64,000 nucleotides of DNA from Henriciella sp. (GCA_013213825.1 JABSQA010000004.1:1-64000); one strand, 5' to 3'; shown: positions 33,517-39,256, numbered from the stretch's first letter. Translations and numbers: made by a program. The notes: generated from the letters alone by a model not told the origin.

Positions 33517-35778
33517 ATGGCTAGAACGGCAAAATGGGTCAAACGTATCTCGCTCGGTGCGAGTGTTTTGGCACTTCTCGGTGTGGCGGCCTGTGACCGT
33601 CAACAAGAACGTCTAGACCGAGCGGGTGAGCTTGGTGGTGCGGTCCTCGATCAATTAAGCGGTAATGATGTGGGCGGAGAGGCCGATCGTGATAAGTATC
33701 GCTCCGTCTCTGTCGAAGCCCGGGCTTTTTCTGGCAGCATTCTCGAACGCACGGTCGCAGTATCGGAGGATGAAGCGGCGCCGCGTTTTGTCATCGGATC
33801 AATTGTTGCCAAGCCAGCCGCCCTGCCACCTGCGGTCGATATCGCGGCTGTGATGGCGCAGCCTGAAATGTCTTTGGACGTTGTCGTTGATGAGGAATCT
33901 GAAGCCAAGATCATCGTCCCTGATGAAAAAACTCTGGAACAGGCGGTGATCGATCCTGAAGTGATTGACCGCATTGAATTGCCAACGACACAGCGCCGAA
34001 AAATTACGGTCGTCGATCCGGGACAGCGTGGGACGTCTGTCGAACAATCCATCCAAACTGATGACGCGGTTCTTCCGCGCGCGCCGCTGAAAATGACTGT
34101 TCCGCAGAAACGCATTCAGCGCGGCATCGCAACGGAGGATGAGCGCAGGCTGCAAACTCGCTCTTTGGCGATTGTCCGCCCGCCAACCCCAGAAGAACGC
34201 ATGCTTCAATTGCCGCAGCTCAGCCCAAAAGTGGCAGAACGTGCGACCATCCTGCCAACCGCAGCCTTGCAACGCCAATTGGTGGCGGAAGAGCGCATGA
34301 TTGAAACCGCGACCAAGTTCAAAGTCGCCGCCAGTATCCAGCGGTCGCGCTCAGGCCAAATGGTGATTGAAATTGGCTCAGATGCGCTGAGCCCGACCAA
34401 TTTCACCCAAGCGGTCTTGCAACAAGGACGCACGGCGCTGGAGAATGGCGTCGAATGCGATGAAGTCGCTGCGCAAGCGGCTGACGCCAATCCACTGGTC
34501 GCCATGGAATGTGTGATTAGAGATTTACGCCAATCTGGCGAGTTCGAATATGTTGAAAAGGACTGGTTCTATGAGCACCAGATGATCCGTCGTCCGGGCC
34601 CGACAGAGGCGCCGGTGACGATCACACCGAATGATCCACTCTTTGGATTGCAGTGGCATTATAAATCGCAAGGCACCGGGCCTGATCAATCTGAAGGCGG
34701 TGCCGGATTTGTCGATTTTTGGACCGATCAAGACACTCAAGGCTCTTCTGAAGTGGTGGTCGCGGTGGTCGATACCGGCTTGCAAATGAGCCATCCCGAT
34801 ATTGTCGGCTCCAGCAATGTCGCACCGGGCTGGGACATGGTCTCAGATTTAGAAGTTGCCAATGATGGTGATGGCCGCGACAGCGATGCCAATGATCCAG
34901 GTGATCTCTGCCCCGAACGCAACGTCTTTGCAGATACATTCCATGGCACACATGTCTCCGGCATTATTGGTGCCGGATCGACGAATAATGCCGATGGCGT
35001 CGCAGGCGGCGCTTGGAATGTCAAAATTGTGCCTGTCCGCGCCTTGGGCAAATGCGGTGGCAAACTCTCCGACATTAATGACGCCATTCGGTGGGCTGCA
35101 GGGACCATTCCTGAGTTTAATGAAGTCGGTGAAGAAGTCTGGAATGAAAATCCTGCCGATATTATCAATCTGTCGCTCGGCCTGTTCAAGACATGTCCGG
35201 CGTCGATGCAGGACGCGATCAACTCGGTAACTGAGCGCGGCGTGATCGTCGTTGTTGCTGCGGGCAATCGCAGTGTGCCAACCGAGTTTTTTGCGCCAGC
35301 GGGTTGCGATAATGTGATCACCGTTGCCGGCGGCGATGCCCGTGGTCACTTGGCACCCTACTCGAATTATGGCGCGGCCGTTGACGTGCTCGCCCCGGGC
35401 GGAGATTTAACCCGCGACGATAATGGCGATGGCAATCCAGATGGCGTCTTGTCGATGAAGTCGGCTGACAATTGTGAAGACCCGCTGACCGGCGAGTCGG
35501 TTGCGTCGTGCTTTTATGCGTATGAGCAGGGCACCAGCATGGCGACACCGCATGTCGCCGCAGCCTTGGCGCTGATCAAGTCTAAGCGTCCAGATCTGAA
35601 TGGGGAGCAATTGGTGTCTACTCTGCTCACCGGGATTAGCGAGATTCCGGAAAATCAATGCACAGGGCTTTGTTCGCAATTCCCTGGCGCAGTTCCAACC
35701 GCGGATGATCCGGATATCTGTTTGCGGCCATGCGGGTCGGGGTTGCTCAATTTGGCTGACGTAAATTTGCCTGATTGA
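33517..35778 (+). CDS. S8 family serine peptidase (subtilase) with predicted lipoprotein signal
   Basis: Lipobox 'LLGVAAC'; triad motifs 'VVAVVDTGLQMSHPDI', 'FHGTHVSGIIGA', 'GTSMATPHVAAALAL'. Confidence 0.93.
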   Translation: MARTAKWVKRISLGASVLALLGVAACDRQQERLDRAGELGGAVLDQLSGNDVGGEADRDKYRSVSVEARAFSGSILERTVAVSEDEAAPRFVIGSIVAKPAALPPAVDIAAVMAQPEMSLDVVVDEESEAKIIVPDEKTLEQAVIDPEVIDRIELPTTQRRKITVVDPGQRGTSVEQSIQTDDAVLPRAPLKMTVPQKRIQRGIATEDERRLQTRSLAIVRPPTPEERMLQLPQLSPKVAERATILPTAALQRQLVAEERMIETATKFKVAASIQRSRSGQMVIEIGSDALSPTNFTQAVLQQGRTALENGVECDEVAAQAADANPLVAMECVIRDLRQSGEFEYVEKDWFYEHQMIRRPGPTEAPVTITPNDPLFGLQWHYKSQGTGPDQSEGGAGFVDFWTDQDTQGSSEVVVAVVDTGLQMSHPDIVGSSNVAPGWDMVSDLEVANDGDGRDSDANDPGDLCPERNVFADTFHGTHVSGIIGAGSTNNADGVAGGAWNVKIVPVRALGKCGGKLSDINDAIRWAAGTIPEFNEVGEEVWNENPADIINLSLGLFKTCPASMQDAINSVTERGVIVVVAAGNRSVPTEFFAPAGCDNVITVAGGDARGHLAPYSNYGAAVDVLAPGGDLTRDDNGDGNPDGVLSMKSADNCEDPLTGESVASCFYAYEQGTSMATPHVAAALALIKSKRPDLNGEQLVSTLLTGISEIPENQCTGLCSQFPGAVPTADDPDICLRPCGSGLLNLADVNLPD

Positions 35779-35812
35779 GGATTTAGAGGGGCTATCAGGA
35801 AGGGAAAGATCC

Positions 35813-36304
35813 ATGCGACCTGGCCAGAATATCCGGCGCTATCGCGGCCGAAAAACACTCGCGATGCTGACCTGCGCATTCGCCGTCACGGGGTGTATGG
35901 CACTTGGGGATGGCACGAGCAGTCTCGGCTTTATGCCCGCTTGGTCTCAGCCCGCGGCATCACAGCCCGCTATGACCGTGGCTCAAGCGAATTTGGTCAA
36001 TGCGCATGCTGCGACCTTTATTGTGCGTTTCAACAATGAGCCTGAGCTCGAACAAGTGTGTCGGAATTTCCGGCGGGACGAAGCGGGCACGCGCGCCGCA
36101 TACAAAGCTTGGGCGGCGCAACACGCGCCCTTGCGGGGGCTGGAATTGGTTCGCGCCAGCTACTCAGGTGAGTTGATTTTAGGGCTGCCTGCGGATGACC
36201 AATCGGGCCGCTCCGCGCGCGATGTGATCGCGGCGCTCGAAACGCTGGACAATCTCGCTTATGCAGAGATCGACTCGATGGCGAGCACAAGCGAAGGGGA
36301 CTAG
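35813..36304 (+). CDS. Lipoprotein with subtilisin-propeptide/inhibitor-I9-like layout
   Basis: Lipobox 'AFAVTGC'; 'ATFIVRFNNEPELEQVCRNF...ARDVIAALETLDNLAYAEIDSMA' resembles the end of subtilase propeptides; directly follows the subtilase. Confidence 0.5.
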   Translation: MRPGQNIRRYRGRKTLAMLTCAFAVTGCMALGDGTSSLGFMPAWSQPAASQPAMTVAQANLVNAHAATFIVRFNNEPELEQVCRNFRRDEAGTRAAYKAWAAQHAPLRGLELVRASYSGELILGLPADDQSGRSARDVIAALETLDNLAYAEIDSMASTSEGD

Positions 36305-36306
36305 AT

Positions 36307-36954
36307 ATGCGGGCATTGTGGTTGCCAGTAATGGGCGTATTGATGCTGGGGGCATGCGAGCAGCAAATCGAGCCCGCGACGGTTGAGGCTGAGACACCGC
36401 CAACCCTTATCGAAGACGTCGATACGGCGCAGCCAATGACACCTGCCACGCCAGAGGCCGCGGATCCCGTTCTAACCAATGTCGCCCAGACTAAAACCGC
36501 AACCATCGATTGGAACGCCGCGCGCGCCGATTTTGCGGCGCGCGACACGGATGACGACATGATGGCGCAAGTCGCGAGTGGAGGGTCACCCGTGGTGCCC
36601 GTTCTCCTGCCGGAAGAACCGGTTGGCGTCGCATCAGTGGGCGAAGACGCTTTGCAATTCCGGCCGCTCGCGGATGGCTATTTCGCGGTCCAAAAGGGCG
36701 ACGTCTATGACATAATCATTAATGGCACAGATCGATTGGTCGCGCGGCCAGGTGGCGAAGGGGTCGCCGCAGACACGCCGCTTGTCTTCGAAGAAACGAT
36801 GACGGGTGCGCTTGTTTCATTCAGCCGCTATGGCGCGTCATACCTGGTCGAGTTCATGTGCAAAGAGCGACAAGCGGTTATAGATGGCAGCTGCATCGAT
36901 GAGGCTGTCGCTTTGACCGAAGTAGAGAAGCTACTGATTGCGGGGACGCGGTAA
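36307..36954 (+). CDS. Lipoprotein of unknown function
   Basis: Lipobox 'VLMLGAC'; 2 nt after previous stop; TAATG overlap with next gene. Confidence 0.7.
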   Translation: MRALWLPVMGVLMLGACEQQIEPATVEAETPPTLIEDVDTAQPMTPATPEAADPVLTNVAQTKTATIDWNAARADFAARDTDDDMMAQVASGGSPVVPVLLPEEPVGVASVGEDALQFRPLADGYFAVQKGDVYDIIINGTDRLVARPGGEGVAADTPLVFEETMTGALVSFSRYGASYLVEFMCKERQAVIDGSCIDEAVALTEVEKLLIAGTR

Positions 36955-38051
36955 TGATAAAGCATTGGGCAGTGTTTGCGATCTCCACAATGGCTCTGGC
37001 GGCATGCGACATTGTGCGGGTGCCAGGCGGTGATCACGAGAATCAAACTCGTCCGGTGATTCCAGAAGGAGCCCCGGGGCCACCACCACCGACCGTGCCT
37101 GTGACAGACCCTTGGGGTGAAGGCGAAGAGCCAATCGAAGTTCCGGTTAGTCAAGAAGAGCCGGGTCAAGACGAGACCGTCCCAACACATGACGAAGCGC
37201 CTACGGACGATACACCAGATCCGATCGAAGATCCTGCAGGACCGTCTGACACTTTGGATGAGGACCCTATAGACACTGTAGATGTGGCGCCGGATCCTGA
37301 ACCGGCCCCTGAACCGCTGCCGGTCAAGTTCGAGTATTATGCACCAGGAGATTTATTGCCGGGCTCCGGCTTTGGCCGTGTAGATGAGACCATTTACGCG
37401 CCTGAAATGGTCTTCCCGATAAAGTCAGCGCCCACATTCTTGAATTCGCAAGTGTATCGCTTCGGGGGCGGCGTGGGTGGTGATCAATGCGATCCGTCAA
37501 ACTACAGCATGCCATGGCGTGACAATTTTTGTGAGACGCGGACCTCAAATCGAACGACGCCGCTATGCTCGGTGAACAAAGTTCATCAGGGGCAGGACCT
37601 GCGCACGGGTACCGCCGCTGAATGTCTGCAGATGCGTGCTCAGACACCGAGCGAACGCGGATTACACGATGCTGTGGCGGTTGAGGATGGCATCATCCAA
37701 TATATCGGGTCTTATTCGTTAAAGCTGAAAGGCACTGAGACTGGGTTCATCTATTCTTATGTGCATCTCAACATGCGCCGCCTTCAGGTTGAAGAATTGG
37801 ATACAGTCAAAGCTGGCGATGTGATCGGTGTGGTCTCAAATGATTTTGGGGGGACACCAACGACCTATCATTTGCATTTTGAGATCAAGGCGCCGATTGA
37901 AGGCGAGGGGATCGTGCATGTCCCGCCTTATATGTCGCTTGTATCCGCGTATGAAAGACGCGAGGGCGGTATTGGACGGGTGGTCGAAGATGATACAGTC
38001 GAAGTGGCCAGTGCACCTGTCATTATCGACCCGACCTGGCTGATCGATTAG
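36954..38051 (+). CDS. M23 family metallopeptidase, lipoprotein
   Basis: Lipobox 'MALAAC'; 'VHQGQDLRTG' and 'YHLHFEIKAP' metal-binding motifs; Pro/acidic linker. Confidence 0.88.
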   Translation: MIKHWAVFAISTMALAACDIVRVPGGDHENQTRPVIPEGAPGPPPPTVPVTDPWGEGEEPIEVPVSQEEPGQDETVPTHDEAPTDDTPDPIEDPAGPSDTLDEDPIDTVDVAPDPEPAPEPLPVKFEYYAPGDLLPGSGFGRVDETIYAPEMVFPIKSAPTFLNSQVYRFGGGVGGDQCDPSNYSMPWRDNFCETRTSNRTTPLCSVNKVHQGQDLRTGTAAECLQMRAQTPSERGLHDAVAVEDGIIQYIGSYSLKLKGTETGFIYSYVHLNMRRLQVEELDTVKAGDVIGVVSNDFGGTPTTYHLHFEIKAPIEGEGIVHVPPYMSLVSAYERREGGIGRVVEDDTVEVASAPVIIDPTWLID

Positions 38052-38197: not shown

Positions 38198-39256
38198 TTG
38201 ATGACAGCCGCAGAAAAGCTACCTGTAGAGTATATTGAAACCGACGGCCCTGATGGACCTGTCGTCACTTTGATCGGTGACAATATGTCGGAAGCTTATC
38301 TCGACGATGCAGAACCCAGCCCACTCATGACGGCTATGGGGCGGTTTTGGACACGTATCGTGCGCACGGCCAAATTCGGTTTGGTCCTAGCTTTGGTTGC
38401 GGGCTATCCGGCAATGGTCACGATGAGTCACAAAGTTGATTCAAGCGCTGTGGTTCTGTCGACCGCAACACCTTGGTATTCAAATGACACCGGCACCGCG
38501 ATGACCTTGCTCGGGCGTGAGCTCTCAGTCGCAGGCTGGGCGGGGGATCGGTCTTGGTGGCACCCGCAAGCGCAACTCACGGCACTGCCTGCATGGCAAG
38601 ACGGAATTACGGGTGCGCTATCGGAATATACGGTGCTCGCCGCCAATCATGCCGCTCGGCAACCTGGCGTTCCGGATACGGATTTAATGGCTGCCGCACG
38701 CTTGCTGGCACCGGCTCAAGAAGCAGAAGCAACGCCGCGTCTCAACGCCGCCGCCGAAGCGCTGCAAGCCTATGAAGGCCGACTGTCTCGTGGGCTCGCC
38801 GCCCAACCGACCGGACTCGCTATCTTTCTCGACGAGCTGAATCTGTACCAGTCATGGTCCACAAAAGCACAGTTGCGTCTACGCTCTAGCGCTGACCGCG
38901 CCGAAGGCTGGCCGGCATCGCGCCAAGACATTGAAGCGCTTTACATTGCCCGGGCACATGCCCAGGTCGCGTCGCAAATGATGATGTCATCAATGATCCA
39001 AGAGCCTGAATTGGTGCGCACGCGAGATGCCCGTGAGGCGCGCGATCGTGCAATCTTTGCTTGGCGCCGCGCCGCAACCTTCTCGCCGCTCATCGTTTCT
39101 AGCCAGGCCGGAACAGGCACCATCCTGTCGGATCACCCTGCTGCGATGATGTACTATTTGTCGGAAATCGACACCGCCACCGCCGATTTTGTCGACGCGC
39201 TTGAGAAACAAGACGCGGAAGTGATTTCCGTGGCGGAGACGACGGCGGCTGAGTAA
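38198..39256 (+). CDS. DUF2333-like membrane-anchored protein
   Basis: Single TM; 'STATPWYSNDTGTAMTLLGRELS...GWAGDRSWWHPQAQLTALPAWQDGI'. Confidence 0.65.
   Translation: MMTAAEKLPVEYIETDGPDGPVVTLIGDNMSEAYLDDAEPSPLMTAMGRFWTRIVRTAKFGLVLALVAGYPAMVTMSHKVDSSAVVLSTATPWYSNDTGTAMTLLGRELSVAGWAGDRSWWHPQAQLTALPAWQDGITGALSEYTVLAANHAARQPGVPDTDLMAAARLLAPAQEAEATPRLNAAAEALQAYEGRLSRGLAAQPTGLAIFLDELNLYQSWSTKAQLRLRSSADRAEGWPASRQDIEALYIARAHAQVASQMMMSSMIQEPELVRTRDAREARDRAIFAWRRAATFSPLIVSSQAGTGTILSDHPAAMMYYLSEIDTATADFVDALEKQDAEVISVAETTAAE

Follow-up and report, generated by a model that had tools for sequence, protein, structure and literature searches.

How bacteria keep in check the enzymes with which they cut their own wall has long been asked, and the known answers vary by lineage. 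Four adjoining genes of Henriciella sp., from a family of marine bacteria (Hyphomonadaceae), raise the question anew: do they form a single unit, and on what would such a unit act? The genes lie at positions 33517-38051 of the 64,000-nucleotide stretch that we analysed (GCA_013213825.1 JABSQA010000004.1:1-64000, from a genome of 3.6 Mb), referred to below as the window, and encode a lipoprotein subtilase (SUB), a prodomain-like protein (PROP), a lipoprotein that we call G3, and an M23 metallopeptidase (M23). An initial annotation had proposed a regulated envelope cascade in which the subtilase, held by a dedicated inhibitor, processes the M23 enzyme or its partner. We find that inheritance and loss of the four genes go together, a pattern suggestive of a switch dedicated to the control of wall cutting, and we give roughly an even chance to the reading that the cassette is a cell-envelope switch in which SUB and a trans-prodomain act on a G3-gated murein endopeptidase. 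The conservation, order and joint loss of the genes, the fold of PROP, the pairing and fusion of G3 with M23, and the intact active-site residues are the parts of it that the analysis shows.

The four genes are tightly spaced on the same strand, as the initial annotation had described: all four open reading frames (ORFs) were confirmed, with gaps of 34 nucleotides (nt) between SUB and PROP and 2 nt between PROP and G3, and a 1-nt overlap of G3 and M23 within TAATG at 36952-36956. The catalytic signatures that it had reported, an intact D/H/S triad in SUB and M23 motifs in the last gene, are likewise borne out by invariant residues and by matches above cut-off to PF00082 and PF01551. The features of the locus are as follows.

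33517..35778, + strand: SUB, lipoprotein subtilase (S8), 753 amino acids (aa); PF00082 with an E-value of 2e-54, orthologues 44-80% identical in cassette loci
33592..33663, + strand: lipobox of SUB with Cys26, and the conserved helix at its N-terminus (CDRQQERLDR...); Cys invariant, the element persisting by itself as a mini-lipoprotein in G012 and seven congeners
34249..34590, + strand: region of SUB resembling a prodomain in cis, about residues 245-358, with SGEFEYVEKD at its end; profile match to PROP
34627..35646, + strand: SUB catalytic domain; PF00082 over residues 411-707, with invariant residues
34771-34773, 34951-34953 and 35536-35538, + strand: SUB triad D419, H479 and S674
35813..36304, + strand: PROP, 163 aa, stand-alone protein resembling a subtilase prodomain and anchored in the membrane; AlphaFold2 model, conserved second cassette gene
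36005..36286, + strand: I9-type domain of PROP, residues 65-158, beta-alpha-alpha-beta-beta-alpha-beta; pLDDT about 95-98 over most of it, Foldseek matches, PF22148 in relatives
36307..36954, + strand: G3, lipoprotein with a fold without known match, partner of M23, 215 aa; adjoins or is fused to M23
36487..36945, + strand: conserved domain of G3, residues 61-213, nearly invariant Cys185/Cys196; alignments, model without PDB match
36954..38051, + strand: M23, lipoprotein metallopeptidase with an acidic/Pro-rich linker, 365 aa; PF01551
37323..37988, + strand: M23 catalytic domain including the WRDNFCExR motif; invariant ligands, PDB matches LasA and LytM
37584-37586, 37596-37598 and 37875-37877, + strand: M23 ligands H211, D215 and H308, invariant

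The arrangement was followed through 61 related genomes, 37 of them Hyphomonadaceae. All four genes stand in one place in 22/37 Hyphomonadaceae genomes, a strict co-occurrence that bears out the conserved neighbourhood on which the initial annotation had staked its proposal; in genome G011, SUB lies at the very end of a contig. The order SUB-PROP-G3-M23 is invariable across cassette loci, and because it is conserved across so many genomes the cassette is not a chance cluster. The flanking genes are constant within the genus, with an AMP-binding enzyme and an esterase upstream and a gene without assigned function and a NifU-like gene downstream, but differ in other genera and in G058, a member of another family; since the flanks differ while the order is kept, the cassette itself is the unit. 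A tree of 106 M23 sequences gathers 49 cassette members in one clade, where the sole non-cassette sequence comes from a contig that begins in M23 (L115), and no cassette locus holds the SUB and PROP of this clade without G3-M23. Three records titled Candidatus Sulfopaludibacter and Halieaceae (L089, L109 and L122) hold typical Hyphomonadaceae cassettes, and their titles or bins are probably wrong.

Within the cassette there is a deeper unit that the initial annotation had missed, namely the pair G3-M23. In searches with broader profiles, 115/119 M23 hits have G3 either as the same-strand gene directly upstream or as part of one chain, a count biased by the recruitment of most G3 profile members via M23 and in which the remaining four hits, beginning 5-520 bases from a contig end, cannot be judged; when G3 itself served as the query of an independent search across the class, 8/8 further loci inspected agreed. 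The two genes overlap by 1-4 nt in most loci and form a single ORF in two (L149, Pseudomonas laurylsulfativorans, and L175, an alphaproteobacterium). Because G3 so regularly adjoins or is fused to M23, these comparisons provide strong evidence that it is the obligate partner of this M23 subfamily. The pair is also older and wider than the four-gene cassette: it occurs without SUB and PROP in Caulobacter, Brevundimonas, Maricaulis, Marinicaulis and other alphaproteobacterial families, as well as in one Granulosicoccaceae and one Myxococcales record (Myxococcota), and a Caulobacter vibrioides strain carries G3-M23 alone and Hyphomonas species the full cassette. Two loci (L081 and L083, in G044 and G052) have G3-M23 directly after MotA/ExbB-like and OmpA/MotB-like genes, which suggests a link of the pair there to a proton-driven wall-associated complex; elsewhere the genes are multiplied, as a tandem G3-G3-M23-G3-M23 (L120:5183-9355) or as G3-G3-M23 (L121 and L123).

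The completeness of G3-M23 in many genomes without SUB and PROP, together with the occurrence of SUB-like catalytic domains in other settings such as a TIR fusion, speaks for a simpler account, in which G3 and M23 are partners and SUB-PROP are merely co-transcribed with them, SUB being a general protease of envelope maturation or quality control. We consider this unlikely: the SUB and PROP of this clade never occur apart from G3-M23 in cassette loci, and the catalytic parts are lost together.

What each component could contribute to a switch was read from its own features. G3 itself gave no significant match in Pfam or NCBIfam as encoded in the window, and none in Pfam among 59 relatives; against the PDB, the best E-value by sequence was 0.097 (DotD). 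For positions 36307-36954 the initial annotation had called for structure prediction, and a model was obtained, but it found no convincing PDB match (none better than an E-value of 0.15); weak matches to an RseB-like fold were not trusted. M23 scores 31.6 bits against PF01551 (Peptidase_M23), where the cut-off is 28.7, and besides the three ligands listed above, H271 and H306 are invariant in aligned relatives, so that the HxxxD/HxH zinc motifs are present; it is presumably a peptidoglycan endopeptidase. Identification as an inactive LytM regulator (DipM, EnvC, NlpD) was rejected, all zinc ligands being kept, and so was identification as the bactofilin-linked LmdC, given the lipobox and neighbours that are SUB, PROP and G3 with no bactofilin.

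SUB matches PF00082 (Peptidase_S8) with 185 bits against a cut-off of 21.8, and its triad is invariant across aligned relatives; assignment to the mycosins of the type VII secretion system (TIGR03921) was rejected, at 105 bits against an NCBIfam cut-off of 278.75, and the name IetS was rejected on score. The roughly 330 residues before the catalytic domain, which the initial annotation had left unassigned, resolve into four parts: the lipo-helix (residues 26-49) and a block at about 58-100, both conserved, then a linker that varies, and finally a region resembling a prodomain (about 250-358). This stretch terminates in SGEFEYVEKD...TPNDPLFxLQWH, which we take to be the usual junction of prodomain and mature subtilase. 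The prodomain-like region matches the PROP profile over the last helix and strand with E-values of 2.5e-4 and 5.8e-4 in the two directions of comparison, where unrelated controls gave 0.16 or worse; a global hhalign comparison of the two failed, leaving the local C-terminal match to stand alone, and the region as query had no Pfam or PDB match of its own. SUB thus appears to carry its own cis prodomain. A relative of its catalytic region, about 47% identical, is fused to a TIR domain in L176:4775-6505 (G034:C9), where PADLOC models for TIR effectors and for the subtilase match; this is possibly a defence effector from the same protease lineage.

Because SUB seems to hold a cis prodomain, PROP would add another one that works in trans. 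The initial annotation had taken positions 35813-36304 for a propeptide-like protein, and fold and profiles uphold that description; what is not supported, given the apparent cis prodomain, is the idea that it supplies a missing I9 domain. The prediction of its structure that had been suggested gave a confident prodomain-like model: over about residues 65-158 AlphaFold2 yields a ferredoxin-like fold whose elements follow the order of subtilase prodomains. The top Foldseek match is the ProteinT protease (8c4z chain A, 112 aa; probability 0.94, E-value 0.017), a chain that we read as the prodomain of that protease, and further PDB fold matches include the alkaline-protease, PC1/3 and PCSK9 prodomains and fervidolysin. 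The protein of the window had no significant match to any Pfam or NCBIfam family, PF22148 (the fervidolysin prodomain) included, but 6/33 relatives matched PF22148 (best E-value 5.8e-4). In a first alignment against the PDB the two best sequence matches were subtilisin prosegments, with weak E-values of 0.15 and 0.33, and a wider alignment, which returned only matches to the hydrophobic N-terminus and noise, did not repeat them.

PROP could instead be some other ferredoxin-like protein, such as a structural adaptor, for the fold is common, the Foldseek E-values are modest, and stand-alone PROP-like genes adjoin a Rieske-protein gene with no neighbouring subtilase. We regard this as improbable, since the best and several other Foldseek matches, the PF22148 matches in relatives and the two best PDB sequence matches all lead to subtilase prodomains or prosegments, and the gene directly follows a subtilase. 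Fold and profile matches taken together make it highly probable that PROP is prodomain-like, and the model suggests a subtilase prodomain of the I9/fervidolysin type, acting in trans if at all. The Rieske iron-sulphur protein neighbours, with no subtilase close, were seen at L060, L062, L063 and L069 (G018, G019, G020 and G026).

The initial annotation had also assigned a lipobox to each of the four proteins. Across 54 cassette loci, in which some genomes are counted in both collections, one is recognisable in SUB (52/54), G3 (51/54) and M23 (48/54), but PROP is not a conserved lipoprotein: its lipobox is lineage-specific (14/54), and most relatives have instead an uncleaved-looking hydrophobic N-terminal helix after an HxGGxLG motif. 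These anchors bear on the idea that the cassette serves predation or antibacterial attack on other bacteria, to which the bacteriolytic LasA and lysostaphin among the relatives of M23, and the occurrence of its subfamily in Myxococcota, lend some colour. With lipid anchors conserved in SUB, G3 and M23 and no secretion or immunity gene recognised near the cassette, we hold that idea to be very improbable.

The history of loss shows the cassette coming apart. SUB, G3 and M23 of this kind are missing together in 13 Hyphomonadaceae genomes, and in 10/13 of these the two cassette-flanking genes adjoin each other. The gap between them is about 155 bases in G009 and about 184 bases in G027; in seven others (G002, G004, G005, G014, G016, G017 and G020) it is about 530 bases and holds a lipoprotein of 67-77 residues homologous to the start of SUB, followed in 6/7 by a 40-residue homologue of PROP's N-terminal membrane helix and in G005 by a similar stretch in a longer frame. 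Genome G012 is intermediate, with a 67-residue SUB remnant and a 167-residue PROP ending before the usual C-terminal tail, the catalytic part of SUB, G3 and M23 all being gone. The eight remnant genomes form one Henriciella-group clade (100/100) among cassette-bearing species in a tree of flanking proteins. Hence the catalytic part of SUB disappeared first, along with G3 and M23, and the PROP domain followed, the order expected if PROP serves SUB and SUB serves G3-M23. The SUB- and PROP-anchor microproteins, of 68 and 40 residues (L191-L198), lie in the gap between the esterase and the conserved downstream gene. Their pooled pN/pS ratios of 0.52 and 0.24 and their conserved lengths indicate that the two are maintained; recent common ancestry alone would hardly explain ratios so low at a pS near 0.6, and a reading of the remnants as pseudogenes was set aside on the same figures. 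In the window a conserved gene without Pfam match (38201-39256) separates the cassette from the NifU-like gene and stays even where the cassette is lost. Promoter and terminator scans gave fewer sites than in shuffles.

The survival of the anchors would follow if they form a functional interacting pair, and this belongs to a further reading that we think possible, though it falls short of an even chance: G3-M23 would be a widespread obligate two-part murein endopeptidase to which the SUB-PROP switch was added once, the SUB and PROP anchor helices interacting and having a function of their own. The reading that we prefer, a switch on peptidoglycan cutting, would operate as follows. At its core M23 would work with G3, its obligate partner domain, which comes from the gene directly before it or belongs to the same chain; in Hyphomonadaceae the lipid-anchored SUB and the membrane-anchored PROP would have been added upstream. 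PROP most likely binds the active-site face of SUB in trans, as chaperone or inhibitor, and would restrain or refold mature SUB at the membrane. Once released, SUB would cut a protein anchored alongside it in that membrane, with G3 or the exposed acidic/proline-rich linker of M23 as the likeliest targets, and the cut would alter M23 activity and hence cross-link cutting. We infer the binding of PROP to SUB, the substrate of SUB, the direction of its effect and the cell-wall role.

Several points weigh against this proposal. Both the linker of M23 and the N-terminus of G3 vary, and no conserved cleavage motif was seen; the presence of G3-M23 in many genomes without SUB and PROP means that the pair has no general need of SUB; the substrates of SUB could be unrelated, with a shared operon as the only tie; and the lines of evidence for a prodomain in PROP are individually weak (the PDB match at 0.15, the Foldseek match at 0.017, the null result of the wider alignment). 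SUB could either activate or degrade M23, both signs being compatible with the data, and each has a precedent: in LytM, cutting off a proregion relieves latency (PMC4594094), and in LbcA-CtpA the outcome is degradation. In the negative version, which fits the same conservation data and which we judge rather unlikely, SUB degrades or trims M23 and/or G3 and so limits cross-link cutting, with PROP restraining SUB. Its precedent is LbcA-CtpA / MepM of Pseudomonas aeruginosa, in which an envelope protease with a lipoprotein partner degrades cross-link hydrolases (PMC6050968), but SUB belongs to S8 rather than CTP, an LbcA-like protein is not present, and an obligate tie between a single protease and a single M23 fits activation as well.

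One lineage thus added a protease and a presumed trans-prodomain to G3-M23 and then lost them in steps, which can be tested in genetically tractable relatives (Caulobacter vibrioides, Hyphomonas), and G3 stands as an obligate M23 partner without a family name from alphaproteobacteria to Myxococcota. The kinds of enzyme, S8 and M23, are already known; the limited, open-licence literature searched has no description of the four-gene unit, of G3 as an obligate partner, of a bacterial trans-prodomain anchored in the membrane or of the anchor microproteins, and gave no match for a bacterial stand-alone I9 inhibitor. Stand-alone I9-type inhibitors include yeast Pbi2, fungal POIA1 and plant SPI-1. 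With these, and with subtilase prodomains (fervidolysin N-pro PF22148, I9, subtilisin prosegment), PROP shares a ferredoxin-like fold with a C-terminal tail, and as a domain on its own it could in principle inhibit in trans; it differs in being bacterial, membrane-anchored and beside a subtilase that seemingly keeps its own cis prodomain.

Like LbcA-CtpA, the cassette would place peptidoglycan cross-link hydrolases under an envelope protease with a lipoprotein partner, but that system was rejected as an identification, the protease here being S8 and PROP and G3 lacking a Pfam family: there a CTP needs an activating partner, whereas here an S8 lipoprotein with a prodomain-like partner shares one operon with the hydrolase, and there is no homology. 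LmdC-bactofilin of Hyphomonas neptunium and LdpA-BacA of Caulobacter, from the same order, also couple an M23/LytM endopeptidase to an operon partner (PMC10945521, PMC6373972), but LmdC, a bitopic membrane protein with a coiled coil, has its bactofilin partner in the cytoplasm, in contrast to a lipoprotein M23 with periplasmic G3. The LytM regulators DipM, LdpF and EnvC are M23-fold envelope proteins of Caulobacterales and others (PMC10336132) that are catalytically inactive, whereas this M23 keeps all its zinc ligands. LytM of Staphylococcus aureus, finally, is a latent M23 enzyme activated by cleavage of an inhibitory N-terminal proregion (PMC4594094); there the proregion lies in the same chain, whereas here the partner domain, G3, is usually a separate protein.

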